From Clostridiales bacterium Firm_04 (lineage in GTDB: Bacteria > Bacillota > Clostridia > Oscillospirales > Ruminococcaceae), in assembly GCA_001603005.1 (NCBI GenBank), contig LVAJ01000014.1:1-64000 (forward strand): a stretch of 64,000 bases of DNA. The letters are read 5' to 3'. Position 1 is the first letter of the stretch, and each line of letters opens with the position of its first letter. This document shows positions 28,663-61,476 of the stretch, one piece after another. A model generated the notes under the pieces. The model made no database searches. It was not told where the DNA came from and saw only the letters and a program-made list of their open reading frames with translations. A program made the translations under genes and the position numbers.

Positions 28663-30255
28663 ATGAGCAAAGCAGTCAAACAGAAAGACGCGGTTCCGGC
28701 GATCCGGCTGCAAAATATCACGAAGCGGTTCGGCAGCGTTGTCGCGAATGACAATGTCAGCCTGAGCGTGCAGCACGGACAGATCCTTTCGATCCTCGGC
28801 GAGAACGGCAGCGGCAAAACGACGCTGATGAACATGATCGCCGGCATCTATTATCCCGATCACGGACAGATTTTTGTGGACGGCAAAGAGGTCGTCATCC
28901 GTTCGCCGAAGGATGCGTTTCAGTACGGCATCGGCATGATTCACCAGCATTTCAAGCTGGTGGATGTGTTCTCCGCAACGGAAAATATCGTGCTCGGACT
29001 GGACGAGAAGGAGGGCTTCAGTCTGAAACGCTCCGCCAAGCGCATCATGCAGATCAGCCTGCAATACGGCTTTGACCTCGATCCGGATAAGAAGATCTAT
29101 GAGATGTCGGTCTCGGAAAAGCAGACCGTTGAGATCCTCAAAGTGCTCTACCGCGGCGCCGATATCCTGATTCTGGATGAGCCGACCGCCGTCCTGACGC
29201 CGCAGGAAACGGAAAAGCTCTTTGCCGTTCTGCGCCGGATGCGGGACAGCGGCAAAGCGATCATCATTATCACGCACAAGCTGCATGAGGTGCTGTCGCT
29301 GTCCGATCAGGTCGCCGTGCTCTGCAAGGGCAGATACATCGGCACGGTGAATACCGCGGAAACCAATGAGAGCGAGCTCACCGAGATGATGGTCGGCAAG
29401 AAGGTTTCGCTGAACATTGCGCGTTCCGAGCCGAAGGATCCGGTTGACCGCCTTGTGGTCGAGGGCATCACATGCAGAAACCGCGAGGGCGCGGAAATGC
29501 TGCATGATGTCAGCTTTACCGCGCGTTCCGGCGAGATCCTCGGCATCGCGGGCATTGCCGGCAGCGGACAGCGCGAGCTGCTCGAAGCGATCGCCGGCTT
29601 GCAGCATGTGGACGGCAGGATCCTCTATCACAATCCGAAAACCGGTCAGACGGACGATCTCCGCGACAAAACGCCGCTGCAGATCCGTGAGCTGGGCGTG
29701 CGGCTGTCCTTTGTGCCGGAAGACCGTCTCGGCATGGGACTGGTCGGCAATATGGACATTGTGGACAATATCATGCTCCGCAGCTACCGAAAGGGCAAGG
29801 GCATGTTTCTGGAGCGGAAAAATCCGAAATCGCTTGCCGAGAAGATCATTCACGATCTCGAAGTCGTGACGCCGAGCGCGAATACGCCGGTGCGCCGGCT
29901 CTCCGGCGGCAATGTGCAGAAGGTTCTGGTCGGACGCGAGATCGCAGCATCGCCGACCGTGCTCATGGCGGCATATCCGGTGCGCGGACTCGATATCAAC
30001 GCATCGTTCACGATCTACAATCTGCTGAATCAGCAGAAGGAAAACGGCGTCGCTGTGATCTTTGTCGGCGAGGATCTGGACGTTCTGCTGGAGCTCTGTG
30101 ACCGCATCATGGTCATCAGCTCCGGAAAGATTGCCGGTACCGTCGATGCGCGAACCGCAACAAAAGAGGAGATCGGTCTGATGATGACGAAAAATTCCGC
30201 AGACCATGACCGTGCGCAGGAGGGAGGTGCGGAGCATGCCGCAGAAACCGCATAA
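28663..30255 (+). CDS. nucleoside ABC transporter ATPase (two-domain)
   Basis: A 530-residue tandem ATPase of the sugar/nucleoside CUT2-like type. The first domain is complete: Walker A GENGSGKTTLMNMI near residue 46, Q-loop GMIHQHFKLV, and Walker B LILDEPTAVLTP near 166. The second domain is degenerate as is usual in this family: GIAGIAGSGQRELLEAI in place of a Walker A, LSGGNVQKVLVGREI near 415, and AAYPVRGLDI in place of a full Walker B. It is preceded by AAAGGA and overlaps the permease gene by 20 bases. Confidence 0.93.
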   Translation: MSKAVKQKDAVPAIRLQNITKRFGSVVANDNVSLSVQHGQILSILGENGSGKTTLMNMIAGIYYPDHGQIFVDGKEVVIRSPKDAFQYGIGMIHQHFKLVDVFSATENIVLGLDEKEGFSLKRSAKRIMQISLQYGFDLDPDKKIYEMSVSEKQTVEILKVLYRGADILILDEPTAVLTPQETEKLFAVLRRMRDSGKAIIIITHKLHEVLSLSDQVAVLCKGRYIGTVNTAETNESELTEMMVGKKVSLNIARSEPKDPVDRLVVEGITCRNREGAEMLHDVSFTARSGEILGIAGIAGSGQRELLEAIAGLQHVDGRILYHNPKTGQTDDLRDKTPLQIRELGVRLSFVPEDRLGMGLVGNMDIVDNIMLRSYRKGKGMFLERKNPKSLAEKIIHDLEVVTPSANTPVRRLSGGNVQKVLVGREIAASPTVLMAAYPVRGLDINASFTIYNLLNQQKENGVAVIFVGEDLDVLLELCDRIMVISSGKIAGTVDARTATKEEIGLMMTKNSADHDRAQEGGAEHAAETA

Positions 30256-46325: not shown

Positions 46326-46356
46326 AGCCGGTGCAATTGCTGTGCCGGCTGTTTTT
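46326..46356 (+). terminator. terminator after the pseudouridine synthase gene
   Basis: AGCCGG (46326-46331) pairs with CCGGCT (46345-46350) and TTTTT follows. Confidence 0.65.
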
Positions 46357-46432: not shown

Positions 46433-46461
46433 TTGCAAAATCTGCGATAATGTGTTATAAT
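46433..46461 (+). promoter_or_regulatory. TerB-ATPase operon promoter
   Basis: TTGCAA (46433-46438) and TATAAT (46456-46461) with a 17-base spacer, a little over 30 bases before the TerB start. Confidence 0.8.
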
Positions 46462-46496
46462 GAATGTAAATATGCCGAGAGGAGATGTTCTGCGCA

Positions 46497-48119
46497 ATGA
46501 GTATGCTGAGCATGCTGAAGCGGCTGTTCCGTGCAGCTGAGGAAATGTATCAGGATGAGCAGGTGCCGAAGCCGAAGAAACCGGCTGCCAAAAAGCCTGC
46601 CGCCAAAAAGCCCGCATCTGCTGCAAAGAAACCTGCCGCCGCCGCGAAGAAGCCGGCTGCTGCGAAGCGTAAAAAGCCTGCTTCCGTGTCGCATTCCGCG
46701 CAGATCTACGGCGAGCAGTCGATTTTTGCGAATCCGACTGCAATGTTCTATCCGGTGCCGGAGCAGATCCGGCAGATGCGGACGCTCTCCGGCTACAACA
46801 ATCTCAACGGTCAGCGCTCCATGGAGAGCCTGTTCTATCAGCAGGGCAAATACATGGAGCAGTACACGGACGATTTTCCGGACATGGTGCAGTGCGGGCG
46901 CTCCGTGCCGATGTACTATAACCTGAAAGACAATGAGCTGCGTGCCTATTTCACATGGCGCACGCGCTATCGCATGGGCGCGCTGCCGCCTGCGCAGAAC
47001 GCGTTTCTGCTGCTTTATGCATACGAGATCCTGAATCTGATCGGCTTTTCGTCGGCGGAGCTTGCGTATGATGCGCTCGGCAATCTGCTGCGTGATTACG
47101 GCGGGCAGTTCCCGTCCGTGAAAAAATCGCTGATGCGCTGGATTCCGGATTTTGCTGCGTATTATCAGGTGCCGTACCGCCTCGAAGATGAAAAAGAGGC
47201 CGCTGCGATCACTGTGCTGCGGCACAGCTCGCATTCGGCGAATGAACTGCTGCTGGCACTCGATACGCTTTCCAAGTATCACATCAAAAATTCCAAGCTG
47301 TATCTTGCCGAGCCGGAGCAGGTCTCCGAGATCGTCAAGGCGGTTTACAAGGCGCTGCTGACATATTACGCAGAACAGAAAAATCAGTCTTTTTCAGCGT
47401 ATCTGCTCGGCGGACAGCAGCGGGAAGAACGGATCATGTTCGAGGGCGCTGTGTTCTATCAGCATTCGCCTGTCGCGAATCGCGAATACCGGCTGTCGCC
47501 GCTCTGCGTGTACCACTGCTATCAGGGCAAATGGGCGCGCGAGACCTTCGGCGGCACGCCGAATGCCGAACGGATCGGCGCACTGCTGCGGACAGTCGAT
47601 TCGATGCTCCGCGAGCAGCTGAAATTCAAGAGTAAGCTGAAAGCAGGCGAGCTGCCGGACGGCGATGCGGATGTTATCCGGAAGGCGATCGCGGATTACT
47701 TTGAGGAGCAGAAGCGCAGGAATGCGCCGGTCATTACCCTGAATGAGGACGAGCTTGCACAGATCCGGCAGGCGGCAGAACATACCACAGATATGCTGAC
47801 GCTCCCGGAGGATCAGCAGGAACCGGAAGCGGCACCGGCTGCGGAGATGCCGGAAGCTGCGGTCGAGGACGAGGACGACGGCGAGCTGCCGGATCTGCCG
47901 CTGAGTGCGCCTGCAATGGCGCTGCTGATCTGTCTGGTGACGGGCGAATCCTATCAGCCGCTTGTTGATGCGGGGCAGATGCTCTCGGTGCTGGCGGATG
48001 AGATCAATGAAAATCTGTATGACACATTCGGCGACACCGTCATCGAAATGGAAGATGACGACACGCCGGTTCTGATTGAGGACTATCTCGACGATTTGAA
48101 AGGAATGCTGGAGACATGA
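46497..48119 (+). CDS. TerB-N/TerB-C protein with Lys/Ala/Pro tail
   Basis: A 540-residue protein. After a short start comes a run of Lys, Ala and Pro (about 24-62, with repeated KKPAAKKPA), similar to histone H1 tails and likely to bind DNA or RNA. Then a TerB-N domain (about 70-290) with PEQIRQMRTLSGYNN and LRAYFTWRTRYRMGALP, and a C-terminal TerB-C-like domain (about 475-540) with LSAPAMALLICLVTG, NLYDTFGDTVIE and LIEDYLDDLKGM. TerB-related proteins occur in predicted metal- or DNA-processing systems with ATPases and helicases. The start at 46497 has AGAGGAG 12 bases upstream. It overlaps the ATPase gene by four bases. Confidence 0.85.
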   Translation: MSMLSMLKRLFRAAEEMYQDEQVPKPKKPAAKKPAAKKPASAAKKPAAAAKKPAAAKRKKPASVSHSAQIYGEQSIFANPTAMFYPVPEQIRQMRTLSGYNNLNGQRSMESLFYQQGKYMEQYTDDFPDMVQCGRSVPMYYNLKDNELRAYFTWRTRYRMGALPPAQNAFLLLYAYEILNLIGFSSAELAYDALGNLLRDYGGQFPSVKKSLMRWIPDFAAYYQVPYRLEDEKEAAAITVLRHSSHSANELLLALDTLSKYHIKNSKLYLAEPEQVSEIVKAVYKALLTYYAEQKNQSFSAYLLGGQQREERIMFEGAVFYQHSPVANREYRLSPLCVYHCYQGKWARETFGGTPNAERIGALLRTVDSMLREQLKFKSKLKAGELPDGDADVIRKAIADYFEEQKRRNAPVITLNEDELAQIRQAAEHTTDMLTLPEDQQEPEAAPAAEMPEAAVEDEDDGELPDLPLSAPAMALLICLVTGESYQPLVDAGQMLSVLADEINENLYDTFGDTVIEMEDDDTPVLIEDYLDDLKGMLET

Positions 48120-49435
48120 ATATTCCGAAGCGAATGGCAGGCGCGGTGATCCACGCTTTGCAGGGCGGCGTCGTGCCGCGGATCGGTTTGCAGTATATTG
48201 CGGTCGGCAGAGAGCGGGAGATCGAAGCGCTGCTCCATGATATTGATGTCATGGCGGACGGCGGCGCATCGTTCCGGTTCATCAGCGGCAAATACGGCAG
48301 CGGCAAAAGCTTCCTGCTGCAAACTGTGCGGAATTATGCAATGGACAGAGGTTTTGCGGTCTGCGACGCGGATCTTTCTCCGGAGCGCAGATTGCAGGGC
48401 GCAAACGGGCAGGGACTTGCGACATATAAAGAACTGATGCAGAATCTTTCGACCAAGACCAAACCCGACGGCGGCGCGCTGACACTGATTCTTGACCGCT
48501 GGATCAACGGCATCCGCACGAATGTTGCGGCGGAAAGCGGTCTGGAGCTGACCGATCCGGCATTTCACAAGCTGGTCGAAAAGCAGATCTATACGGTCGT
48601 GGATTCGCTGAGCTCGCTGGTGCACGGCTTCGATTTTGCAAACTTATTGCGCATCTATTATCAGTCCTTTGTCAATGACGACATGGAGACAAAGGCGAAG
48701 GTCATCAAGTGGTTCCGCGGCGAGTATCAGACCAAAACCGAGGCGAAAAATGACCTCGGCGTAAGCATCTGTATTCGTGACGACGATTGGTACGAGTACA
48801 TCAAGCTGTTCGCGATGTTTTTGAAGCAGGCTGGCTATCAGGGCTTGATCGTGCTGGTGGATGAGCTCGTGAATCTCTATAAGATCCCGCAGAGCATCTC
48901 GCGCGAGAAAAACTACGAGAAGATCCTGACCATGTATAATGACACGATGCAGGGCAAGGCACAGTATCTCGGCATTGTCATGTGCGGTACGCCGCAGTGC
49001 ATGGAAGATCCGCGCCGCGGCATTTACAGCTATGAAGCGCTGAAATCGCGGCTTGTGGACGGCAAATACTGCGACGGACAGAACAATCTCCATGCGCCGA
49101 TCATCCGGCTGGAGCCGCTGAGCTATGCGGAAATGCGCATCCTCGTGGAAAAGCTCGCGGAGATCCATGCGGTGCTCTATGACTATCAGCAGATCGTCAC
49201 GGCAGCGGATATGGATGCCTTCATCAAGATCGAGTACGGGCGCATCGGCGCGGACAGCAATCTGACGCCGCGCGAGGTCATCCGCGATTTCATCGAGGTG
49301 CTCGACATTATGCAGCAGCATCCCGGCAGCACGGTCGCCGGACTGCTCGGCGGGGAAGCAGGCTTTACCTATGCGCCGACAACGCTTGAGGAGCAGGAGC
49401 CGGTCGGGGACGAGTACGCGGAATTTACCGTATAA
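48116..49435 (+). CDS. BrxC/BrxD-type (DUF2791) ATPase
   Basis: A 439-residue P-loop ATPase of the BREX-system ATP-binding family. It opens with VGREREIEALLHDI, has Walker A ISGKYGSGKSFLL near residues 56-68, and Walker B LIVLVDELVNLYKI near 241-254, followed by IVMCGTPQCMED and SREKNYEKILTMYND. A C-terminal helical region has LTPREVIRDFIEVLDIM. In BREX and related sets such ATPases work with helicases or methylases; none of the other BREX core genes is present. The ATGA overlap makes its translation depend on the TerB gene. Confidence 0.88.
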   Translation: MNIPKRMAGAVIHALQGGVVPRIGLQYIAVGREREIEALLHDIDVMADGGASFRFISGKYGSGKSFLLQTVRNYAMDRGFAVCDADLSPERRLQGANGQGLATYKELMQNLSTKTKPDGGALTLILDRWINGIRTNVAAESGLELTDPAFHKLVEKQIYTVVDSLSSLVHGFDFANLLRIYYQSFVNDDMETKAKVIKWFRGEYQTKTEAKNDLGVSICIRDDDWYEYIKLFAMFLKQAGYQGLIVLVDELVNLYKIPQSISREKNYEKILTMYNDTMQGKAQYLGIVMCGTPQCMEDPRRGIYSYEALKSRLVDGKYCDGQNNLHAPIIRLEPLSYAEMRILVEKLAEIHAVLYDYQQIVTAADMDAFIKIEYGRIGADSNLTPREVIRDFIEVLDIMQQHPGSTVAGLLGGEAGFTYAPTTLEEQEPVGDEYAEFTV

Positions 49436-49504
49436 CACAATCGGAAGGATCGCGGGAGACCGCGTATCTATAAATGCAAACAACCAAAAGGAGAGGTTTA
49501 AACC

Positions 49505-50194
49505 ATGAACATGAAAAAAACAGCGATCTGTGCAGCCGCAATGATGCTGCTGACATGTGTATCCGGCTGCGGTCAGAAAGCCGGCAGCGCAGGCACGACC
49601 GAGGACAGCGGCGCGAATGAATCGCAGGTCGCAGCAGAGCTGAACGATGCAGTTGTCGGAGAAAATGCGTTTATCATCACGCTGTATCCGGACGTTGCAC
49701 CGATCACCTGCGAAAACTTTGAAAAGCTGGTCAAGGACGGCTTCTATGACGGACTGACCTTCCACCGCGTCATCGACGACTTTATGGCGCAGGGCGGTGA
49801 TCCGCAGGGCACCGGCATGGGTGGCAGCGACCAGAACATCAAGGGCGAGTTCTCGTCCAACGGCGTTGAGAACAATCTGTCGCATCAGCGCGGCGTTGTT
49901 TCCATGGCGCGCAGTCAGGATCCGGACAGCGCATCGAGCCAGTTCTTCATCTGCTACGGCGATGAGTCCTTCCTCGACGGTCAGTATGCTGCATTCGGCG
50001 AGGTCAAAGAGGGCATGGAAGTCGTGGACAGCTTCCTGACGGTCGAGCGCGCAATGGGCAGCGACGGTTCTCCGTCTTCGCCGCTGACGCCGATCGTAAT
50101 GGATAAGGTCGTGATGATCGACAATGATTCGGAAGGTCATCCGCGCGTTGAGGTCAAGATGCAGCCGATCACGGCAGCTCCCGCTGAAAACTGA
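49505..50194 (+). CDS. cyclophilin-type peptidyl-prolyl isomerase lipoprotein
   Basis: A 229-residue lipoprotein with a lipobox CVSGC (Cys near residue 22), a Ser/Gly/Ala-rich linker, and a cyclophilin domain (about 50-220) with FYDGLTFHRVIDDFMAQGGDPQGTGMGG, the family signature, and SMARSQDPDSASSQFFICYG. It is a likely extracytoplasmic foldase acting after secretion. The start follows AAAAGGAGAGG. It lies after the ATPase gene but has no clear link to it, and a bidirectional terminator follows. Confidence 0.93.
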   Translation: MNMKKTAICAAAMMLLTCVSGCGQKAGSAGTTEDSGANESQVAAELNDAVVGENAFIITLYPDVAPITCENFEKLVKDGFYDGLTFHRVIDDFMAQGGDPQGTGMGGSDQNIKGEFSSNGVENNLSHQRGVVSMARSQDPDSASSQFFICYGDESFLDGQYAAFGEVKEGMEVVDSFLTVERAMGSDGSPSSPLTPIVMDKVVMIDNDSEGHPRVEVKMQPITAAPAEN

Positions 50195-50253
50195 TTTTAC
50201 ATTGCATTTTCATTGTCACAGGAATTTCCTGCGCTGAGAACGAGCAAAAAAGA

Positions 50254-50294
50254 CCGCGGCAGGAATCCGGTATCAGATTCTGCCGCGGTTTTTC
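50254..50294. terminator. bidirectional terminator between convergent genes
   Basis: A long stem (CCGCGGCAG with CTGCCGCGG, extended by AATC/GATT; 50254-50288) flanked by an A run and a T run. It separates the cyclophilin gene from the HTH gene. Confidence 0.88.
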
Positions 50295-50297
50295 ATA

Positions 50298-50516
50298 TCA
50301 GATGCCGCCGTCATCTTCTTCAAATTCCAGAATATCGCCGGGCTGACAGTGCAGCGCCGTGCAGATCGCATTGAGCGTGGAAAAACGGATCGCACTGACC
50401 TTTCCGGTTTTCAGCTTGGAGAGATTGACATTGCTGACGCCGACCTTTTCGCTTAATTCATTGAGGCTCATTTTCCGGTCTGCCATGACACGGTCAAGCC
50501 GCAGGATAATTGCCAT
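50298..50516 (-). CDS. small Cro/CI-type HTH regulator (YozG-like)
   Basis: A 72-residue XRE-family DNA-binding protein: MAIILRLDRVMADRKMSLNELSEKVG, VSNVNLSKLKTGKVSAIRFSTLNAICTALHCQPGDILEFEE. The recognition helix lies near residues 30-42. Small regulators of this kind (YozG-like) typically sit next to DUF2975 membrane proteins. The start at 50516 has GAGGTG upstream. It is the last gene of a minus-strand operon and may bind the repeated octamer at the other end of the operon. Confidence 0.85.
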   Translation of the reverse strand: MAIILRLDRVMADRKMSLNELSEKVGVSNVNLSKLKTGKVSAIRFSTLNAICTALHCQPGDILEFEEDDGGI

Positions 50517-50524
50517 ATCGCACC

Positions 50525-51347
50525 TCACAGTGTATCGTTTTCATTCAGAAATCTGCGGATTTCTGTGCTGACCGTTTCCGGCTCCTCAACATGCACATAG
50601 TGTCCGCACCGGAGCTGTACCAGCCTGCCTTCCGACAGCGCTGCCTGATAGTTTTCGTGGATCTGCTGCCATGTTTGCAGACCGTTTTCGCCGAACATCA
50701 CGGAGAACATGCTGTCGTCCGCGGAGAGGATCTGCAAGGTCGGCACATCCGGAACCGGATGCGCCCGCAGCGCAAGATAATCGCTGCGCTGTGATTCGGT
50801 CAGAATGCCCTCGCGGAACATTGCGGTCTGCGGAAAGATGCTGTACCAGCGATACGTGATCGCCTTGTACTCTGCGCGTTCCGCTTTCGTCAGATCGGGG
50901 CTTGCCGATGCCGGAAAGACGCTTTGTATCCGGTACAGGCGGTATCCGCCCATGCTGTACAGCCAGAAATCGAAAAATGCCGATTCGCGGAGACTCTGTT
51001 CACAGGTCTGCATTTTCGCTGTATCCGTAGCCGAATTTCTCGATCACCGCGATTCTGTATGTGTCGGAGAGCCGGCTGAACAGCGGCTTGAAATCGCAGA
51101 TGACCGCTGGCGTATTCGCACCAGCCATGAAGACGAGCGTTTTGTCGCCGCTGCCTTCGGTATAGATGTTCATGTTTCCGCCGTCGATCTGCACGAACTG
51201 CCCCTGATGCCGGATCAGCGCTGCCTCTTTTTGCAGCATGTGCCGATGATAGCCGTACAGCCCCGCGATGAATACACCCGCGAGCAGCAGAACGGTCAGC
51301 AGCAGCAAGCCGATGATTTTCAGCGGTTTATGCTTGCGTTTTGTCAT
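50525..51347 (-). pseudogene. decayed membrane-anchored alpha/beta hydrolase
   Basis: Two fragments in different frames form one ruined hydrolase. The first (51347 to about 51000) has a membrane anchor, GGNMNIYTEGSGDKTLVFMAG and YRIAVIEKFGYGYSENAD, then stops. The second (about 51013 to 50525) resumes inside a cap-like region and ends with IRRFLNENDTL. In intact family members the segment between them holds the nucleophile Ser in an HSMSG-like motif; that stretch is absent. The loss and frame change meet near 51000-51013. It lies between DUF2975 and HTH genes in one operon. Confidence 0.75.
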
Positions 51348-51363
51348 TGCAGTTCCTTCTGTG

Positions 51364-51846
51364 TCAGAGCGTTTCGTCGGATTCCTGCTGGAGCATTGCG
51401 CCGTAGCGGATGATATGCGCAATGAACAGAAACAGCAGTCCCTCGACCAGCGCGGACGGATTGACCATTCCGCCGACGCCCTTTGCCGTGCCGATGAAGC
51501 CGGCTGCGGTCACAGAGGGGATCACCGCATTCAGCAGAAACAGAATGCCGATGATGCGCACGCTGCGGACATTTTTCGCGGTGAACGGGATGCCGTCCTT
51601 CGAGATGCGGAAGAACATGACCGCCGCGATCACCATGATGACGACGCTGATGACAAAGGAGATGCAGCTCCGGTAGACCATGTACCGGTTGATTGTATCG
51701 GCAATGTCATGCGCGGCTGTGATCAGCCGTGCGACTGCGAAAGCCGCATTGCATCCTGCCGCGATCAGGCAGAGCACTGCGATTCCGAGGCTTCCGCTTT
51801 TCAGCTTTTCGATCGCCGTGTTTTTTGTCATGATTTGTTTGCTCAT
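51364..51846 (-). CDS. DUF2975 membrane protein (second copy)
   Basis: A 160-residue protein with four hydrophobic helices. It ends with LQQESDETL, the same nine residues as the next upstream gene product, and both have a FRISKDGIPF or FRNLRKDGQPF loop, so the two are paralogues. The start follows GAGGG. DUF2975 proteins have no known activity and are often paired with a small HTH regulator, as here. Confidence 0.8.
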   Translation of the reverse strand: MSKQIMTKNTAIEKLKSGSLGIAVLCLIAAGCNAAFAVARLITAAHDIADTINRYMVYRSCISFVISVVIMVIAAVMFFRISKDGIPFTAKNVRSVRIIGILFLLNAVIPSVTAAGFIGTAKGVGGMVNPSALVEGLLFLFIAHIIRYGAMLQQESDETL

Positions 51847-51867
51847 CTGGATTCCCTCGTTTCCCAT

Positions 51868-52416
51868 TCAAAGTGTTTCGTCGGATTCCTGCTGCAATAC
51901 GCTGCCATAGCGGAAGGTTCTTGCAAGAAAGAGCAGCAGGATGCAGAATCCGACTGCCGGATACGACAGCGTGCGGTGATCGAACACATCAAGAAAAATG
52001 TGCGGTTCTGAAACGCCATTGCAGCGGAACAGCGAGAAACAATAAATCAGCGCGGGAACCGCTGCGCGGAGTCCCTGCAAAATACCTGCCGCTTTCAGAA
52101 GCTTTGCGTTCCGCTCCGTGAAGGGCTGACCGTCCTTTCTGAGATTCCTGAACAGCATGATTAGCGGAATCAGTGTGGCTGACGAAAAAACAAATTTCGC
52201 AATCGTCTCCGGAAGTTCGGCGTAGGCAAGGGCTGCGAAAGCGCTGTCGAGCGTACCGTTAAAAGTATGCGGCTGACTGAGCGTGACGATCAGATTGTAT
52301 CCGCTGCGGATGCACTGCGCCGCGAGGAACAGCACCGTCAAAATCAGTGCAGGCTTTGCCAGCCTGCGGGTGCGTTCGATGTTATTCAGCTTGACAGTAT
52401 CAAAATTGTTTTCCAT
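51868..52416 (-). CDS. DUF2975 membrane protein (first copy)
   Basis: A 182-residue protein with four hydrophobic helices. Together with its paralogue it heads the minus-strand operon. FRNLRKDGQPFTERNAKLLKAAGI is the shared loop. The start at 52416 is set by AAGGAGG seven bases upstream. The promoter is at 52478-52506. Confidence 0.8.
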   Translation of the reverse strand: MENNFDTVKLNNIERTRRLAKPALILTVLFLAAQCIRSGYNLIVTLSQPHTFNGTLDSAFAALAYAELPETIAKFVFSSATLIPLIMLFRNLRKDGQPFTERNAKLLKAAGILQGLRAAVPALIYCFSLFRCNGVSEPHIFLDVFDHRTLSYPAVGFCILLLFLARTFRYGSVLQQESDETL

Positions 52417-52477
52417 AGGGAAACCTCCTTGTTTGCTGTGTTCCTGATGTCCGGAGCGCTGTTGCTCCGTTGTTTGC

Positions 52478-52506
52478 AGTATAGCACAAAGATATTCGTT
52501 TGTCAA
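52478..52506 (-). promoter_or_regulatory. DUF2975-HTH operon promoter
   Basis: Minus-strand TTGACA (52501-52506) and TATACT (52478-52483) with a 17-base spacer. A pair of overlapping ACGATAAA octamers lies just upstream of the -35 box. Confidence 0.85.
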
Positions 52507-52510
52507 CTAA

Positions 52511-52618
52511 AAATTAACGATAAACGATAAATATTATATGTCTGCACAATCCGGCATGACGGATTGACGGGCACCTTTATGCATTTTGACGATAAAAATT
52601 TATCGTTTATCATTAAAT
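52511..52618. promoter_or_regulatory. ACGATAAA operator cluster between divergent promoters
   Basis: Five octamers lie in about 100 bases. Left: two overlapping ACGATAAA copies (52517-52524 and 52524-52531). Right: ACGATAAA (52589-52596), its inverted partner TTTATCGT (52599-52606) with two bases between, and TTTATCAT (52606-52613). The left (52514-52532) and right (52598-52616) blocks match at 18 of 19 positions as inverted copies. Confidence 0.65.
52586..52613 (+). promoter_or_regulatory. probable helicase promoter
   Basis: TTGACG (52586-52591) and TATCAT (52608-52613) with a 16-base spacer. The palindrome ACGATAAA-AA-TTTATCGT (52589-52606) fills the spacer. Confidence 0.55.
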
Positions 52619-52636
52619 TGACAGAGGTGTATGCGT

Positions 52637-54928
52637 ATGGACGCATTTGAACGCTATGCCCCGTTCATACAGGAATATATTTTCCGCGCGGGCTGGGAGA
52701 AGCTGCGTGCGGTACAGGTTGCGGCTGCGGATGCGATCTTCAATTCCGAGGACAATGTGCTGATCTCTGCATCGACGGCATCGGGCAAGACGGAAGCCGC
52801 ATTTTTTCCCGTGCTGACGCTGCTGGAAGAAAATCCGCCCGCATCGGTCGGCGCGATCTACATTGCACCGCTGAAAGCGCTCATCAACGACCAGTTCACC
52901 CGCATGACCGATCTCTGCGAACCCGCAGGCATCAAGGTCTGGCGCTGGCACGGGGATGTCGGACAGTCGCAGAAGGCAAAGCTGCTGAAGCATCCGTCCG
53001 GCATTCTGCAAATCACGCCGGAATCGCTCGAAGCGCTGATGCTGCATAAGCATGCGATGATCCCTGCGCTGTTCCGCGATCTGCGATTTGTCATCATCGA
53101 CGAGGTGCATTCGCTGCTGCGCGGAGACCGCGGCGGGCAGACGCTCTGTCTGATCGAACGGCTGTCGGATCTTTCCGGTGCAAAACCGCGCAGGATCGGA
53201 CTTTCCGCGACGATCGGCGACATTGAGCAGACCGCTGCCTATCTCGGTACCGGTTCGGGACGCAATACGGTCATTCCGCAGATCGCGCCGCAGAAAAGTA
53301 CATGGCGGCTTTCCATGGAGCATTTTTATGCGATGGATACGCAGGCGGCGGAAGGCAAAGAGGTCGATGCGCCGGAGCCGCTGGAACGCGAAACGGATCC
53401 CGCACCGCCTGCATCGGATCCCGCATACGGCTATATTTTCTCGCATACGCGCGGAAAGAAATGTCTGGTTTTTGTCAATTCCCGCGAGGAATGCGAAGCC
53501 GTGACGACCTCGCTGCGGCAGTATTGCGAAAACAAGCATGAACCGGACAGATTCCTGATCCACCACGGCAATCTCTCCGCATCCTTCCGCGAAACGGCAG
53601 AGGCGGTCATGAAGGACGAGGAACAGGTCATGACGACGGTCACGACGGCGACGCTGGAGCTCGGCATCGACATCGGCAAGCTGGAGCGTGCATTTCAGCT
53701 TGATGCGCCGTTCACGGTATCCTCATTTTTGCAGCGCATGGGCAGAACCGGCAGGCGCGGACTGCCGCCGGAAATGTGGTTTGTCATACGCGAGGAGGAA
53801 CCGGAAGCGCGGGCAATGCTGCCGTCCACCGTGCCGTGGAAGCTTTTGCAGGGCATTGCGCTGGTGCAGCTCTATGCAGAGGAGCACTGGGTCGAACCGC
53901 CGAAGCTCGACCGCCTGCCGTTCAGTCTGCTCTATCATCAGACCATGAGCACGCTTGCGGCAAACGGCGAGATGACGCCCGCGCAGCTTGCGGGACGGGT
54001 GCTGAAACTGCAGCCGTTTCACCGTATCACGCAGGATGATTACCGCATTCTGCTTCGGCATCTGATCGACAAGGATCATATCCAGCGCACCGAACGCGGC
54101 GGACTGATCGCCGGACTGGCAGGGGAGCGCGTCATCAACAATTACAAGTTCTATGCGGTTTTTCAGGACAGCGAGGAATTTACCGTCCGGTCGGAATCGC
54201 AGGAGATCGGCACAATTGTCCAGCCGCCGCCTGCGGGCGAAAAAATCGCGATCGCGGGGCATGTCTGGGTAGTGGACGAGGTGGACTATGACCGCCATGT
54301 GGTCTACTGCACAATGGTCAAGGGCAAGGTGCCGGCATATTTCGGCGACTGCCCCGGCGATATTCAGACGAAGATTCTCGAACGCATGCGCGGGGTACTG
54401 CAAGAGGAGAAACAGTATCCGTATGTCATGAAAAACGGCGTGGCAAGACTTGCGCTTGCGCGGAATACGGCGGCGCATTCGGGGCTGCTGACCGAACCGC
54501 TGATCTGTCTGGGCGGCGATATGTATGCGCTGTTCCCGTGGCTCGGAAGCTACGCATTTCTTGCACTGGAACGCCTGCTCAAGATCAAATGCGCGCAGCA
54601 GCTGCATTTATCGGGGCTTGCGCCGTCCCGTCCGTATTTCATGACATTCAAAATGAAAGCGGATAAGGAGACTTTTTTCCGTGTGCTGCGTGAGCAGGCG
54701 GAAGCGGAGTTTGATCCGATGGAGCTGGTGTATCCGGACGAGATCCCGCTCTTTGAAAAGTACGATGAATATGTGCCGGCGGAGCTGGTGCGGAAAGGCT
54801 TTGCCTACGGCATCTTAGCGGCAGACGAAATGAAGGCGCGGATCCGGAACTGGAACGGCAGCATTGTGGAAACGGATTTTTCTGCGCCGATGCTGCCTGC
54901 GGAGACTTCGGACGCGCCGGACAGATAA
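52637..54928 (+). CDS. Lhr-like SF2 DEAD/DEAH helicase
   Basis: A 763-residue superfamily 2 helicase. Motif I is STASGKTEAA (near residue 50), motif Ia APLKALINDQ, motif II DEVH (near 155), motif III SAT (near 190), and motif VI QRMGRTGRRG (near 368). A large C-terminal region after about 440 is typical of Lhr-type helicases, though shorter than full Lhr. The start at 52637 has AGAGG nine bases upstream; 52631 is too close. Its own promoter and operator cluster lie directly upstream. It completes a TerB/ATPase/helicase set that is split in this genome. Confidence 0.92.
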   Translation: MDAFERYAPFIQEYIFRAGWEKLRAVQVAAADAIFNSEDNVLISASTASGKTEAAFFPVLTLLEENPPASVGAIYIAPLKALINDQFTRMTDLCEPAGIKVWRWHGDVGQSQKAKLLKHPSGILQITPESLEALMLHKHAMIPALFRDLRFVIIDEVHSLLRGDRGGQTLCLIERLSDLSGAKPRRIGLSATIGDIEQTAAYLGTGSGRNTVIPQIAPQKSTWRLSMEHFYAMDTQAAEGKEVDAPEPLERETDPAPPASDPAYGYIFSHTRGKKCLVFVNSREECEAVTTSLRQYCENKHEPDRFLIHHGNLSASFRETAEAVMKDEEQVMTTVTTATLELGIDIGKLERAFQLDAPFTVSSFLQRMGRTGRRGLPPEMWFVIREEEPEARAMLPSTVPWKLLQGIALVQLYAEEHWVEPPKLDRLPFSLLYHQTMSTLAANGEMTPAQLAGRVLKLQPFHRITQDDYRILLRHLIDKDHIQRTERGGLIAGLAGERVINNYKFYAVFQDSEEFTVRSESQEIGTIVQPPPAGEKIAIAGHVWVVDEVDYDRHVVYCTMVKGKVPAYFGDCPGDIQTKILERMRGVLQEEKQYPYVMKNGVARLALARNTAAHSGLLTEPLICLGGDMYALFPWLGSYAFLALERLLKIKCAQQLHLSGLAPSRPYFMTFKMKADKETFFRVLREQAEAEFDPMELVYPDEIPLFEKYDEYVPAELVRKGFAYGILAADEMKARIRNWNGSIVETDFSAPMLPAETSDAPDR

Positions 54929-55066: not shown

Positions 55067-58000
55067 ATGAAAATGAAAAAAATCGGCTGTGTAATGACGG
55101 CGGCTGTCATGGGGATGCAGCTGTCGGCTTACATGCCTGTCACGGCGGTTACGGCGCCGTCAGTCAGCGGGAAGGGCGTTTGTTCGCTGTCGGAATTTGC
55201 CGACGGGATCCGCGCGGTGACGGAGCGGGATGCGGACAGGCAGTTCTATGATACGGTGACCTACGGCACCGGCAGCGATGTTCTGACTGCAGACGGAAAC
55301 GCGGAGACCGGATACGGCGACCTGACCGTCCGGAACGGGGAACTCATGATCTGCGCTGCGGCGCCCGAACAGAATGTGCAGTCCGCCGGCACGATCCGCC
55401 GGTTTGCGGATGCTGCGTCCGAGTTCGGCTATGAGACCGAGCAGGACGGCGATACGCTGACGATCACGAATGAATTTCAGACTGCCCGCCTGATCGTCAA
55501 GGCGGCAGGCGAGATTGATGCGCACGGTGCGCAGAGTGTGACATCAGGCTACCGCGATCTGCACATTCTGCAATATGCAACAACCGCGCAGGCATATGCT
55601 GCATATCAGGCATATCAGGATGATCCTGCGGTGCAGTATGTGCAGCCGTCGCACATTGTCTCGCTGGATCCGGTCGAACCGGACACGGATGCGGCGGTCA
55701 GCGGGCTTGATTCGCAGAGCTACATGACATGGGGTGCGGATCTGATCGGCACCGAGGCATTCTATCAGAAATATCTTGCGGACAAAAACCTGCCGGAAGT
55801 CCGCATCGCCGTGATCGACACCGGCATCAACGATGCGCCGGAGCTGTTCAAAGGGCGCATTCTGCCGGGCGGCGTCAACTATTCGAGTTCCGGCGATGAC
55901 AGCGTTTCGGACGATCTCTATCACGGAACGCATGTGGCTGGCACGATCTGCGAGCTGACGCCGGACAATGTGAAGATCCTGCCGATCAAATCATTTGACA
56001 AAAGCGGACATGCGTCCGATGAGCAGATCTATGCAGGCATCATGTATGCGCTGGAAAACAATGCGGATGTGCTGAATATGAGCTTCGGCGGTCTGGGCGT
56101 CAATCCGCTGGAAGTCGAAGCCATGATGATCGCAGAAAAAAGCGGCATGATCTGCTGCGCGGCTGCGGGCAATAATGCAGACGATGCGCGGTTTTACTAT
56201 CCGAGCAGCATCAAGAGCTGCATTACGGTCGCGGCGGTCAGCAATGCGATGAAGCGCGCGGATTTTTCCAATTTCGGTGAAATGATCGACGTTTCGGCGC
56301 CGGGTGTCGGGATTGTCAGCTACGGCATTGAGGGCGCGGATCAGAAGATCTCGAAGGACGGCACCAGCATGGCGACGCCGCATGTGACGGCTTGCTGTGC
56401 GCTGCTGCGGAGCTATGACAAGGAGATGAGCGCGGATCGCGCAGAGCGGCTGCTCACCCTGAACGCGACCGATCTCGGCGAACCGGGATTTGACAAGGAT
56501 ACCGGCTGGGGACTGGTCTGCATGAAGGATTTCCGCTGGAGTGAGGGCATCTGCAAGGCGCCGGTCTTTTCCGAGGATCCGGGCAATTACGGCACGGCGC
56601 AGACCGTCGAGCTGACTGCCGAGGACGATTCCATGCAGATCTATTACACGACTGACGGCACGGTGCCTTCCGCGGAAAACGGTACGCTGTATACCGAGCC
56701 GCTGGAGATCGCGGCATCGGCGCGGATCCTTGCAGTTGCGGTGAAAAAGGGCTATCAGAACAGTGTGCCCGCCGAGGCAATCTATACGATCGGCGGAAAG
56801 GACATTGCCGGTGCATGGGAGTACGCTGACGGCTTTGTGACGAAATACCGCGGCGTGCGCAAAGAGGTGCGTGTGCCGGAAACGCTGGAAGACGGCATGC
56901 AGATCGTCGGCATCGGACCGGAAGCATTTGCAGGCAACCGCTCTGTCGAAAAGGTCGTTCTGCCGGAGACCGTTACGGAAATCGGCGAACGGGCTTTTGC
57001 GGGCTGCACCTCGCTGACGGAGATCTCAGCAGGGAATGTGGAAAGCATCGGTGCGGGTGCGTTTGCAGATGACAGTCTGCTGGAAAAGGCGGAATTTGGT
57101 ACGCATCTGACCGAGATCGGCAAGGGCGCATTCCGGCTCTGTACGACATTGCCGGAGATCTCGCTCGACACGGTTCGGCAGATTCCGGATGAGTGCTTTG
57201 ACGGCTGCTACAAACTGCAAAAGCTGTCGGTTCAGGCTGCGGAATCGTTCGGTGACCGGGCATGTCTGAACTGCGTCACATTGGAAACGATCCTGACGGA
57301 CTGGCGGCAGGTGACGGCGATCGGTGCGCGGGCATTTTCCGCATGCAATTCGCTGACAGCAGATGTCTATGCAGAAAAACTGGAAACACTCGGCGATCAT
57401 GCCTTTGAGGATGCGTGTTCCGTGGTGCGGATCGTGCTGCCGGAAGGCATCCGCGTGATTCCGGAGGGCGCTTTCTCCGGATGCAGCGGACTGCGGCTGC
57501 TGGAGCTGCGCGGTGCAGAGGTATTCCGGAATGAGGCAGCCGCGATCGGCAGCTCCCGCGAAGATTTCCGGGCGATCCTGCCGTATGACCGGATCACGGA
57601 GCTTGGCATGAATGCGCTGCAGGGCATGCGGCTCGGCAACGGATTTGACACAGTGACATTCTCCGCATTGGAGCAGCTCTCGATCCGCTCGTTTGCGGGC
57701 GTGACGGTCGGCGTACTGGATCTGCCGAACGTGAAAACGGTTCCGCACAGTGCATTTCAGTCCGCGAATGTTTACTGTCTGCGGCTGGATGCAGCGGAGA
57801 CGCTGGAAACCGGAGCCCTGCTGGGCGTGCGTTCGGTGCAGCTGACGGATTCTGTCAAGGAGATCGACGCGGGTGCGATCCCTGACGAAACATGGGTTGT
57901 GACGGCGAAAGACACCGTTCTTCCGGATACCGGAGCAGCGCTGCAGCTTTGTCAGGAGCCGCTTGTCATGCGCCTGAATCAGCGCTCCATGACGGTGCAT

Positions 58001-61000
58001 CTGCATGAACATGACGCATTCCGGATCACGGCGCTCGGCGTCGGTCTGAAATATCAGTGGTATCATGTGGACGGCGATTCCGCGGAACCCGTTCCGCAGG
58101 CAGATTCTGCGGAATTTGCGCCGCCGACCGATACTGCCGGCACAGAGATCTATCGCTGTATCCTGACGGATGCGGCAGGCAGAATGGAGCGCGTGGAAGT
58201 CGAAGCGGTCGTGACGGAGGAAGCGAAAAACACGGATCTTTCCGGTTCGGGATACGACGATCAGATTGATGTGAGCGGAACATACCGCTATCTCATACCG
58301 GTTCCGCAGACCGGCAGCTATGAAATTGAAGCAGCAGGCGCGGCGGCGGTTTCCGGTGTGCTGACCGACACGGCAGGCAATGTGCTCGGCAGTTTTCCGG
58401 CAGAGGCAGCGGATGCGCAGATGTTCCGCGTGATGCTCGAAGAAGGGCAGAACTGTCTGCTGACGGTGAACACGCTCTGGGACGGTCCGGTTCTGATTCA
58501 GGTCAGAAAGGATCCCGCCGAGCGGAAATCCCTCGCAGGCTGCAAGGTGCAGGTGCTTCCGGCACTGTTCGGTTTGTACGGCAACAACTGGCATCCGGAT
58601 CTGATCGTGACGGCACCGGACGGCCATACGCTGACGGAATCTGTAGACTACACAGTGCTTGTCAGCAAGCAGAACGGACATATGCAGCTTGTCATCGTCG
58701 GCATCGGCGGCTATGTGGGCAGCTGCACCGCGGAAGCGGACGTCATCGACCGCATCCCCGCAGATACGCCGGTTCCGGTCACGCTGAACGGAAAAAAGGA
58801 CAGCAGCACCTTCCTGTTTATCCCGTCGAAAACGGAGACCTACTACTACTACGCCGGAACGGATTCGCATTACCAGAGGGAGTGGGAGACAAAACAGACG
58901 ACCGGCAGCTACGGCGGCAGACAGATGTATACCGGCATTTCGGCAAGATGTGTCGTTTCCAGTCAGCCGGACGGAAAGGGCACGGTCTTTGCGGAAAGCA
59001 GCTATTCGACGTTCAATGACAATCAGTTCTGCGGTTCGGTCAAGCTGAATGCCGGACAGATGTACTATCTGACCTGCACGATCCGCGAGGAACGCACCGT
59101 GAAGTTTACGCTTGTGGTATCGGATCAGCTGCGGGATATCCGCAAGGCGGATCTGGAAGGCGATCTGTTCGCGGTCTACCGTGAGGGCGAATGCTATGAG
59201 CCGGAGATCCGTCTGAACTACGGCGGCGAGACACTGAAACAGCGCAGAGACTATTTTGTGCTGAATGCGCGGAATGATGCGCCGGGTACTGCGACCGTCA
59301 CGCTGGTCGGCACCGGACTGTTTATCGGCAAAATTTCGCGCGATTATGAGATCATTGCGCCGTACAAAAAGGCACCGGAGACACTGACGCCGCTCGGTGA
59401 GACAACGCTGCTGAACTGCGAGGACACGCATCTTGCAACGCTCTGGTTCCGTGCAGATCAGGCGAAGGAAGGCTCCGGCGAGGCGCGCTACCGCGTCCTG
59501 AACGAGCAGGTTTCCGGCGGTACGCTGATCTACCGCGTCTACCGTCTGGATGAGCAGCTGAAAGCGATGTCGCTGGTGCGCGCGATGCCGGACGATAAGA
59601 ATGATTATCTGCTGCGGAACGGCATTTATTGTGTCGCGGTTTCGCGCACATACGAAGAACGCGGCGGAAAGACGAATCTGACGGTCGTGACGCCCTATTC
59701 CCTGCAGGATGCAGAACTGACGACCGGCGAAACGGCGTATACCGGCAGTGAAGTGCAGGCGCCGGTCACGCTGACCATGCCGGACGGTACCGTTTTGCAG
59801 CAGGGACGCGATTTCGTCGTTGCCTATGCAGAGGATTATGCCAATGTGATGTTCGGCGAGGTGCCGTTCACGCTGCGTTCGACAAAATATTCCTACGGCT
59901 CCGGCGCGGGCAGCTACAAGATCGTTGTGAAGCTGCCGGAAACGGCGGAGCAGCTGACAGAAGGCGAATACGCGGCACCGCTGACGCTGACAGACCGGCT
60001 TGCATGGTACCGGCTGACGCCGGAGCAGGATACGGATTATCTGCTTGCGAGCGATGATGTGACGGATATCGTGCTGCGTGTGTTCTCGGATGAAGCAGAG
60101 ATGCTGGAGGAGACCGCCGGCACCGGCACCAAGGCGCTGACATTCTCTGTGCCTGCCGGTGAAACGCGCTATATCATGGTGAAGTACAACGGTCTGAACC
60201 GTGAGGGTACGCTGCATTTCCGACTGGAAACCGATCAGAAGGCGCTTGCGTCCTGCGCGGTCGAGGCAAAGCCGGTCTATTGGACGGGCGATCACGTCAC
60301 GCCGGACATTACGCTGACGGACGGCGATTATGAGCTGGTCGAAGGCGAGGACTATGTGCAGCGCTATATCATCAATGATGTGGATGTCGGCACGGCTTCC
60401 GTCAATTATATCGGCAGGGGAAGATATGTCGGCATGCTCGATGTGGATTTTCCGGTCGTGTTCAATCGCGATGATTTTCAGGAACAGATGGACGACATGA
60501 TGCTGACGCCGCTGATGCTGGATTACGAGTATACGATCCGCAACACTGAGGAGCAGCGCTACCGCCTGTTCAGCTATTATTCCCCGCTGGATGCGCAGAT
60601 CCGGATGTCGGTGTACAATGCGCGCTGCAAGCTGGCGATCCAGATGTATAACACGGTAGGTGATTATCTCAAAACGCTGGATGTCAGCCGTGCGGGAGAT
60701 CTCGATTTTGAGTATTACGGCGGCACACCGTTTCTGTATCTGTTCTCCGCAAGCGATATTTCGAGCTCCAATCAGTACTGGAACATGCAGCTCACAGACC
60801 TGACCAATACCGATCTGGAGATCTTTGAGGATCCGGATACGGGCATGTTCTACCGAATCTTTCCGGACGGAAGAACTGCCGAGCTTTACCGCGTGGATCC
60901 GACGCGTTCGGAGCTGATCTATCACGATTTGCCGGATTCAAGCAGAGACATCCGTGTCGAATCCGTTCAGCCGGGCATTTTCCCGGTGATCCCGAAATCG

Positions 61001-61327
61001 ACCGTGATCTACGGCTCATCGCCGGTCCATCTGATCCGGTATCTGGACTATTATCATCTGCTGTTTCTGCCGCTGCCGTACAGTGTGCGGTATTCGGATA
61101 TTCAGGGTGATCTGAACGGTGACGGATATTTGTCGCCGTCAGATGCGGTGCTGTTTTCCGCAATACTGAACGAAAACGCGATGATCGACAAGGAATGGAT
61201 CAACCTGAACACGGAAATTGCCGATCTCAATGGGGACGGCTATACGGATATGCTGGATCTGATGCAGCTGATGAATCTCGTTTATAAGGATTCCTATTTT
61301 ACGGATATGCCGGTTCCGCTCTATTGA
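55067..61327 (+). CDS. giant secreted subtilase with LRR, beta repeats and dockerin
   Basis: A 2086-residue extracellular protein. Signal peptide 1-30 and a pro-like domain (about 160-205). The S8 peptidase (about 240-490) is intact: Asp251 in VIDTGI, His286 in HGTHVAG and Ser434 in DGTSMATPH. Then a chitobiase-C-like domain (about 505-570), BspA-type leucine-rich repeats (about 595-940), an Ig-like module (about 970-1050), and four beta modules of about 70 residues near 1160, 1360, 1545 and 1725, with motifs such as LVEGEDYVQRY and GRGRYVGMLDV. The C terminus is a complete dockerin with two calcium loops (DLNGDGYLSPSD and DLNGDGYTDMLD). The start follows GAGGG. It is likely cell-surface or cellulosome attached; its protein target is unknown. 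Confidence 0.9.
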   Translation: MKMKKIGCVMTAAVMGMQLSAYMPVTAVTAPSVSGKGVCSLSEFADGIRAVTERDADRQFYDTVTYGTGSDVLTADGNAETGYGDLTVRNGELMICAAAPEQNVQSAGTIRRFADAASEFGYETEQDGDTLTITNEFQTARLIVKAAGEIDAHGAQSVTSGYRDLHILQYATTAQAYAAYQAYQDDPAVQYVQPSHIVSLDPVEPDTDAAVSGLDSQSYMTWGADLIGTEAFYQKYLADKNLPEVRIAVIDTGINDAPELFKGRILPGGVNYSSSGDDSVSDDLYHGTHVAGTICELTPDNVKILPIKSFDKSGHASDEQIYAGIMYALENNADVLNMSFGGLGVNPLEVEAMMIAEKSGMICCAAAGNNADDARFYYPSSIKSCITVAAVSNAMKRADFSNFGEMIDVSAPGVGIVSYGIEGADQKISKDGTSMATPHVTACCALLRSYDKEMSADRAERLLTLNATDLGEPGFDKDTGWGLVCMKDFRWSEGICKAPVFSEDPGNYGTAQTVELTAEDDSMQIYYTTDGTVPSAENGTLYTEPLEIAASARILAVAVKKGYQNSVPAEAIYTIGGKDIAGAWEYADGFVTKYRGVRKEVRVPETLEDGMQIVGIGPEAFAGNRSVEKVVLPETVTEIGERAFAGCTSLTEISAGNVESIGAGAFADDSLLEKAEFGTHLTEIGKGAFRLCTTLPEISLDTVRQIPDECFDGCYKLQKLSVQAAESFGDRACLNCVTLETILTDWRQVTAIGARAFSACNSLTADVYAEKLETLGDHAFEDACSVVRIVLPEGIRVIPEGAFSGCSGLRLLELRGAEVFRNEAAAIGSSREDFRAILPYDRITELGMNALQGMRLGNGFDTVTFSALEQLSIRSFAGVTVGVLDLPNVKTVPHSAFQSANVYCLRLDAAETLETGALLGVRSVQLTDSVKEIDAGAIPDETWVVTAKDTVLPDTGAALQLCQEPLVMRLNQRSMTVHLHEHDAFRITALGVGLKYQWYHVDGDSAEPVPQADSAEFAPPTDTAGTEIYRCILTDAAGRMERVEVEAVVTEEAKNTDLSGSGYDDQIDVSGTYRYLIPVPQTGSYEIEAAGAAAVSGVLTDTAGNVLGSFPAEAADAQMFRVMLEEGQNCLLTVNTLWDGPVLIQVRKDPAERKSLAGCKVQVLPALFGLYGNNWHPDLIVTAPDGHTLTESVDYTVLVSKQNGHMQLVIVGIGGYVGSCTAEADVIDRIPADTPVPVTLNGKKDSSTFLFIPSKTETYYYYAGTDSHYQREWETKQTTGSYGGRQMYTGISARCVVSSQPDGKGTVFAESSYSTFNDNQFCGSVKLNAGQMYYLTCTIREERTVKFTLVVSDQLRDIRKADLEGDLFAVYREGECYEPEIRLNYGGETLKQRRDYFVLNARNDAPGTATVTLVGTGLFIGKISRDYEIIAPYKKAPETLTPLGETTLLNCEDTHLATLWFRADQAKEGSGEARYRVLNEQVSGGTLIYRVYRLDEQLKAMSLVRAMPDDKNDYLLRNGIYCVAVSRTYEERGGKTNLTVVTPYSLQDAELTTGETAYTGSEVQAPVTLTMPDGTVLQQGRDFVVAYAEDYANVMFGEVPFTLRSTKYSYGSGAGSYKIVVKLPETAEQLTEGEYAAPLTLTDRLAWYRLTPEQDTDYLLASDDVTDIVLRVFSDEAEMLEETAGTGTKALTFSVPAGETRYIMVKYNGLNREGTLHFRLETDQKALASCAVEAKPVYWTGDHVTPDITLTDGDYELVEGEDYVQRYIINDVDVGTASVNYIGRGRYVGMLDVDFPVVFNRDDFQEQMDDMMLTPLMLDYEYTIRNTEEQRYRLFSYYSPLDAQIRMSVYNARCKLAIQMYNTVGDYLKTLDVSRAGDLDFEYYGGTPFLYLFSASDISSSNQYWNMQLTDLTNTDLEIFEDPDTGMFYRIFPDGRTAELYRVDPTRSELIYHDLPDSSRDIRVESVQPGIFPVIPKSTVIYGSSPVHLIRYLDYYHLLFLPLPYSVRYSDIQGDLNGDGYLSPSDAVLFSAILNENAMIDKEWINLNTEIADLNGDGYTDMLDLMQLMNLVYKDSYFTDMPVPLY

Positions 61328-61366: not shown

Positions 61367-61458
61367 TATAATATTCCCAGAAACACAGAGGGAAACGTCG
61401 GGAAACGGGTATACGAAAGGATCCGCTCTGTGCTGAATGTGCAGGGCGGATCTTTTTG
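61367..61458 (+). promoter_or_regulatory. possible attenuator leader of the carbohydrate-binding gene
   Basis: TATAAT (61367-61372) without a good -35 box is followed by a leader with two exclusive pairings. CACAGAG (61384-61390) can pair with CTCTGTG (61426-61432), enclosing two GGGAAACG repeats. Otherwise the terminator stem (61420-61430 with 61442-61452, then TTTTT) forms. The ribosome site GAGAAAGG follows directly. Confidence 0.5.
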
Positions 61459-61476
61459 AGAAAGGCTGGTTTTATC

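Follow-up and report, generated by a model that had tools for sequence, protein, structure and literature searches.

Three genes at 46497-54928 of the window, by which is meant the whole analyzed stretch of 64,000 nucleotides of contig LVAJ01000014.1 from Clostridiales bacterium Firm_04 (all coordinates refer to that stretch), are, judging by their sequences, those of Shango, an anti-phage system known elsewhere, and the system per se is thus not new. What is unusual here is its near-fixation in one clade, the splitting off of its helicase gene, a basic tail on its TerB protein, and a palindrome in the interval preceding the helicase gene. The explanation that we regard as the best, and as moderately probable, is that, in one lineage of gut Oscillospiraceae, a Shango variant has become a stable locus of the chromosome while still acting in DNA-directed defense; function as a defense system is what sequence comparisons make most likely for Shango in this clade. 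According to the accessible portions of PMC10250203, Shango is a three-gene anti-phage system of Pseudomonas aeruginosa, with an earlier report in Escherichia coli and with published phage phenotypes, that is made up of a TerB protein, an ATPase, and a DEAD/DEAH helicase, and a rumen survey, to the extent that its text is accessible, names Shango as one of the systems that DefenseFinder detected there (PMC13356809). No description of the Shango mechanism was met in the available parts of the open-access literature on the system, nor do the available parts of the open-access full texts searched by system and gene names mention the variant (near-fixation, split, tail, or palindrome), this silence being weak evidence of absence, because the searches were name-based and most subscription papers fall outside them.

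The initial annotation of this DNA had placed a TerB protein, an ATPase, and a helicase here, with the first two overlapping by four bases, and both the positions and the overlap (ATGA, 48116-48119) are borne out by Pfam and by the open reading frames (ORFs). The sngA gene (46497-48119, plus strand) could start at 46485 or 46497 and stops at 48119, the latter start being preferred because the ORF of relative L061 starts at the equivalent residue; its product matches TerB_N (E 1e-15) and TerB_C (E 7e-20), both above the Pfam cut-offs, as well as the PADLOC model of SngA (202 bits, 7.9e-60). SngB (48116-49435, plus strand) is a BrxC/BrxD-type AAA+ ATPase with intact Walker A (GSGKS) and Walker B (DE) motifs that matches Pfam BrxC_BrxD (E 5.7e-165), which we take to be the family formerly called DUF2791, and PADLOC SngB (604 bits, 3.2e-182). 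SngC (52637-54928, plus strand, with 52631 as another possible start) is a BrxHI/Lhr-type DEAD/Helicase_C SF2 protein whose motifs I, II, III, and VI (ASGKT, DEVH, SATI, and QRMGRTGR) are intact and which matches PADLOC SngC (908 bits, 1.7e-273). The same three families, as seen by PADLOC, make up Shango in P. aeruginosa PA14 and E. coli, from which the window differs in that sngC lies 3.2 kb off, behind a cyclophilin gene and a divergent helix-turn-helix (HTH)/DUF2975 operon, in that SngA has a basic N-terminal tail, and in that the locus is near-fixed in its clade, whereas the Shango of these two species resides in a variable hotspot. All three genes are found in one locus of 8.4 kb, and the usual uninterrupted A-B-C operon, which was not counted as defining, is absent; as sngC is split off, the locus is filed as a Shango variant. 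The predicted DNA-processing system of the initial annotation thus holds as one gene set, and not as an undescribed system, it being already known as Shango (PADLOC); the paper that the annotation meant is taken to be Anantharaman 2012, which reportedly deals with Ter systems.

The link between the three genes, which had been no more than inferred, is upheld by a sample of 119 genomes of the family (most of the genomes used throughout are metagenome-assembled), where SngA, SngB, and SngC, the last counted only above 300 bits, all occur in the same 13 genomes and none of them in the other 106 (SngA versus SngC, Fisher p 1e-17). A helicase often found without the TerB-ATPase pair had been named at the outset as the pattern that would speak against such a link; no SngC above 300 bits was seen without SngA in these 119 genomes. 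Weaker helicase matches are common (88/119 genomes at E<=0.001), the best one below the cut reaching 94 bits. The SngB matches in the family number 14, of which 12 are full-length; of the other two, that in G080 is truncated by the end of its contig, and that in G002 is weak (E 5e-4) and was dropped from the counts. Nine of the 13 Shango genomes have A, B, and C together (C being cut by the contig end in G093), and the remaining four comprise the window with C split off, G019 with A on another contig, G094 with all three on different contigs, and G080, for which this cannot be told. The dispersed Shango genes of G019 (contigs C6 and C32) and G094 (C18, C43, and C5) lie away from contig ends and represent further operon splits. 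In the best 80 of 218 SngB relatives from a scan of species genomes, SngC is present at 74 loci, five of the other six stopping at a contig end and L074 being a genuine separation. Shango is found in records of Ruminococcus albus and R. flavefaciens as well. Further afield, 691 out of 72,556 plasmid records contain SngB homologues, all below 60% identity, as compared with none of 50,697 phage records (E<=1e-20), and both of the plasmid matches inspected have contiguous TerB, ATPase, and helicase genes.

Of the 30 genomes of the window's genus, 25 have SngB, 24 SngC, and 22 SngA, the corresponding figures for the 13 high-quality ones being 13, 13, and 12; three genomes have SngB and no SngA (G142, G143, and G144, with SngC also missing from G142), and the contig ends at SngB in each. 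The yardstick proteins RecA, LysA, and RpoB are found in 30, 29, and 28 of the 30 genomes (RpoB over the cut-off in 24). The main clade of 25 genomes was delimited from a RecA tree and a three-gene tree (24 genomes, the six without RpoB being left out), and SngB is present in 23 of its members, where 3.1 misses would be expected from incompleteness alone; the two genomes without it (G132 and G136) are each 75-77% complete. Among the five basal genomes of the genus, Shango is contiguous and divergent in G108 and G138 (SngB 62-68%) and absent from the other three (G122, G129, and G130), against 0.7 misses expected. As SngB was found in just 5/13 genomes (2/6 of high quality) of the one other genus surveyed, Shango is near-fixed in the window's genus and patchy elsewhere. 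No clean empty site was found in the Sng-less genomes, among which a cyclophilin orthologue is seen only in G122, with no Sng genes within the surrounding 20 kb, the others giving weaker or generic cyclophilin matches only. The 20 main-clade loci referred to below come largely from the same genomes as the 30-genome sample, and the two sets are not independent.

The evolutionary rates, compared in this genus only, set the three proteins apart. In pairwise comparisons of 17 main-clade genomes (136 pairs; for LysA, 16 genomes and 120 pairs), mean protein distances relative to RpoB are 1.18 for RecA, 1.28 for SngC, 1.32 for SngB, 1.83 for LysA, and 3.66 for SngA, the last still 3.3 times RpoB when the tail is removed; SngB and SngC distances have equal means and are correlated at 0.93 over 210 pairs. 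The ratio of nonsynonymous to synonymous divergence (dN/dS) of SngB between the window and 11 chosen genomes is 0.017-0.125, and is lower than that of LysA in 10/10 and that of RecA in 8/10 usable pairs (G140 is saturated), with dS taken as a simple NG86 count that nears saturation for distant pairs, and with the dS of RpoB looking depressed, probably through codon bias. SngB and SngC thus appear, as far as their sequences tell, to be the constrained engine of the system, and SngA its variable part. The R. albus-type loci have their flanks in common too, and five pairs of them have SngB/SngC 90-100% and SngA 61-96% identical. Recent transfer was considered as a source of the high SngB identity and was set aside in favor of constraint, as in almost all pairs the synonymous divergence of SngB equals or exceeds the values for RecA and RpoB. 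Many groups of the species tree reappear in the Shango tree, which covers 23 genomes (G137 with G134; G139 with G146; G127 and G128 with G145; G124 with G141), the congruence being judged by eye. The species tree joins G126 to the window (support 90), but the Shango tree keeps it out of the group to which the window belongs (100) and, when rooted on G108/G138, has its root on the branch of G125 (49) instead of that of G135. Inheritance thus seems to have been mostly vertical, with exchange inside the genus being possible. LysA was found close to SngA in just four genomes (G000, G119, G123, and G126); wherever else both were found, they are on different contigs, several of which are short, and the Shango site may, therefore, not be constant.

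The separation of the helicase by a cyclophilin gene and a divergent regulator operon, which had been noticed in the window from the start, is real and clade-specific: sngB and sngC are 874-4638 bp apart in every one of the 15 loci, out of 20 from the main clade, that permit the measurement, versus at most 200 bp in 46, 200-1000 bp in nine, and more in four of 59 other loci. In G135, sngC sits on a separate short contig and is absent from the 10 kb downstream of sngB. The gap in the window begins with the cyclophilin-type, lipoprotein-like gene (49505-50194, plus strand; Pfam Pro_isomerase 1.2e-45), which is found there in 14/15 measurable main-clade loci and seems to be an unrelated linked passenger outside the system, a role in DNA processing being unlikely because it starts like a lipoprotein and is less conserved (57-74%). 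Then, on the minus strand, follow a Cro/C1-type HTH_26 regulator (50298-50528; Pfam 4.1e-24), 88.6-98.5% identical in 12/20 main-clade loci, and two widely varying DUF2975 partners that are divergent from sngC (51364-51867 and 51868-52506; Pfam 5.4e-09 and 1.5e-06). Also on the minus strand, an alpha/beta-hydrolase-like gene is present as two overlapping ORFs in different frames (50525-51013 and 51000-51422), where L058 (12416-13456) has a single ORF of 347 amino acids; a pseudogene and an assembly error cannot be told apart. An extra plus-strand ORF sits between palindrome and sngC in L060 and L067, the L060 copy being hydrolase-like by BLAST and having no Pfam match.

Each part of the split locus has a promoter-like site of its own. 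The sigma-70-type consensus match ahead of sngAB (TTGCAA-17-TATAAT, with TG preceding the second hexamer; 46433-46461, plus strand) retains TATAAT and an upstream first hexamer in 15 of 16 sequences (the window and 15 main-clade loci) and scores at least 10 in 12/16, versus 2% of mononucleotide shuffles. The promoter-like site of sngC (52586-52613) is overlapped by the palindrome ACGATAAA-N2-TTTATCGT (52589-52606), which lies in the stretch separating the divergent DUF2975 genes from sngC and is exact and the sole window match at up to three mismatches (0.15 expected; 12/100 shuffles had at least one match). At the same threshold, the palindrome is present in 10/20 main-clade loci, including 9/10 of those that hold both the HTH gene and the divergent region, and gives three matches, all with three mismatches, in 60 other loci (995 kb). 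The HTH_26 protein is a putative binder of the palindrome. L063 and L064 have no DUF2975 match, and L064 keeps the palindrome (two mismatches) some 40 bp before sngC, perhaps as a relic or as the site of a different regulator.

The Lys/Ala/Pro tail ascribed to the TerB protein is likewise real and clade-specific, and needs a correction as to its position, which is N-terminal (about residues 21-66); "H1-like" describes its composition and not homology. According to Pfam, PADLOC, and AlphaFold2, SngA consists of a helix (residues 3-21), the basic tail predicted to be disordered (~21-81), TerB_N, a middle region with a beta part, and TerB_C; the AlphaFold2 model has a mean predicted local distance difference test (pLDDT) score of 81.6, with residues 21-81 below 50. 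The net charge of the tail has a median of +12 (+4 to +17) in the 17/17 main-clade SngA compared, and a median of 0 (-10 to +9) in 63 others, as taken on the segment upstream of a conserved SngA motif, with start codons chosen mechanically and with eight sequences with too short a segment omitted (including the truncated main-clade SngA of L062); the 63 include at least two genomes counted double (L114/L140 and L080/L145), as well as a basal member of the window's genus (L147).

Proposing how such parts might work together draws on three things: the suggestion, in the accessible text of PMC12839542 (whose main text, by text search, mentions neither TerB nor Shango), that BrxD, an ORC/Cdc6 AAA+ protein, possibly loads or activates BrxHI; the placement, in that of PMC12278908, of SngC, BrxHI, DruE, and DpdJ in one potentially distinct SF2 clade; and weak Foldseek matches of SngB. 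These lead us to propose a loader, a translocase, and a TerB adaptor, most steps of which we infer. SngB, as an ORC/Cdc6-like AAA+ ATPase, would assemble on DNA and load or license SngC, as an SF2 translocase of the BrxHI/Lhr type, on DNA that is foreign or replicating, with SngA and its TerB domains as a fast-evolving adaptor or sensor, the tail of which could here add electrostatic binding of nucleic acids. The block might be mechanical (remodeling or stalling the invading DNA) or might act via host nucleases, since no nuclease or methylase domain was recognized in SngA, SngB, or SngC, and the HTH_26 regulator would probably tune the helicase gene apart from sngAB. The SngB and SngC motifs are nearly invariant where readable in the 80 relative loci (79-80 for SngB and 71-74 for SngC), with the Walker A lysine intact in 79/79 and 74/74, respectively. 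The helicase core of SngC resembles SF2 helicases of known structure of the Lhr type and the Ski2/Brr2-like type, including PDB 5v9x and 7lhl (E about 1e-26 to 1e-25 by sequence), both presumably Lhr.

A number of observations weigh against this reading. In the parts accessible, PMC12839542 calls BrxHI Ski2-like, whereas PMC12278908 sets BrxHI and SngC apart. Confidence in the SngB model is moderate (75.3, with 65.8 for the next-best one), and the matches that Foldseek found for it are weak and generic, the first being a mitoribosomal subunit (E 6e-3) and further ones, of AAA+ and other kinds, including RdrA, BrxC, several ORC chains, HslU, and ClpX; by sequence, SngB matches no solved structure at E<=0.01. 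The SngA model found no counterpart in the PDB by Foldseek at E<=0.001, and the SngA profile gave a single match (E 0.63) among solved structures. The sngC promoter is not recognizably conserved (score of at least 10 in 2/16), and the palindrome is missing from 1/10 loci with the HTH gene and present in 1/5 without a close one (the remaining five main-clade loci end too early or lack the gene). Near-fixation and slow evolution are also atypical of accessory defense, as is a neighborhood that is largely housekeeping: FtsK, UvrA, tRNAs, a penicillin-binding protein, an RlmL-type methyltransferase, and a pyridoxal phosphate (PLP) decarboxylase (LysA, SpeE, and RlmL are our own labels for what Pfam calls a PLP decarboxylase, a spermine synthase domain, and an RlmL-type methyltransferase).

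It is on these last points that domestication, a fairly unlikely alternative, is built, namely, that the proteins have been kept for chromosome maintenance (processing of forks or recombination intermediates), with phage defense being secondary or lost. The number of main-clade genomes with SngB as compared to that expected, the SngB dN/dS being low relative to LysA and RecA, the retention of the helicase despite its separation, and the largely housekeeping neighbors, with no other convincing defense gene among the scanned ORFs, all favor it. Shango is patchy in the family (13/119), however, and missing from 3/5 basal genomes of the same genus, and is therefore dispensable nearby; furthermore, strong purifying selection was found on all of the defense genes analyzed in PMC10924106 (in the portion accessible), and SngA distances 3.7 times those of RpoB are what an immune sensor might show.

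A remnant of BREX, consisting of BrxD and BrxHI, is a very improbable source of the locus, even if the relation to BREX parts that the initial annotation had pointed to is there: SngB and SngC match the BrxD (182 bits) and BrxHI (408 bits, 2e-122) models and are homologous to the BrxD-BrxHI dyad of type 2 BREX. The Shango models score far higher (604 and 908 bits), the NCBIfam BrxD equivalog NF033438 gives SngB 183.5 bits against a cut-off of 350, and the BREX core of BrxC, PglX, and PglZ is not present among the 33 chosen window ORFs scanned with PADLOC (the RluA, S8 peptidase, and DUF2975 genes and several small ORFs lying outside the scan), which also hold no PglW and, in agreement with the annotation, no methylase partner; a TerB protein is found instead. 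That the TerB-ATPase pair and the helicase are chance neighbors, for which the 3.2 kb and opposite-strand operon between them and the contig-internal, scattered parts in G019 and G094 could be cited, is extremely improbable, given that the same 13/119 genomes hold all three genes, that B and C lie within 200 bp in 46/59 other loci, and that SngB and SngC distances correlate at 0.93.

As to the surroundings of the locus, a terminator-like hairpin (46326-46350, plus strand; 10 pairs and a T-rich tail, a consensus match only) marks the boundary between an upstream RluA-type gene and sngA. A defense island was looked for and rejected, the 33 scanned ORFs giving, besides the Sng/Brx models and many cross-matches of the SngC helicase, only putative housekeeping cross-matches (FtsK to SspH; UvrA and an ABC-transporter ATPase at 28663-30255 to mad3; methyltransferase-type genes to mad2). 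Downstream of sngC, the plus strand encodes a 2086-amino-acid subtilase with BspA-type leucine-rich repeats and a type I dockerin (55067-61327), with an S8 relative following sngC in 13/15 main-clade loci having both SngB and SngC, and then a carbohydrate-binding protein of the Cthe_2159 type that ends in a low-complexity Gly/Pro-rich stretch (61456-63645).

Returning to the preferred reading of a stable chromosomal Shango variant, one may note that a lineage whose Shango is near-fixed, slow to evolve, and split by nature offers a comparative handle on the mechanism of the system. It also raises the question of whether a defense system can become core machinery: an unlikely, yet more far-reaching, proposition is that Shango can leave the accessory immune pool and become a core chromosomal DNA-processing complex with defense as one of its outputs. 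If this were true, SngABC would have persisted while most of the genus radiated, SngB and SngC changing only slightly faster than RpoB and RecA, and Shango would have outlived the break-up of its operon, gaining a nucleic-acid-binding tail of H1-like composition and having its helicase placed under a separate regulator.

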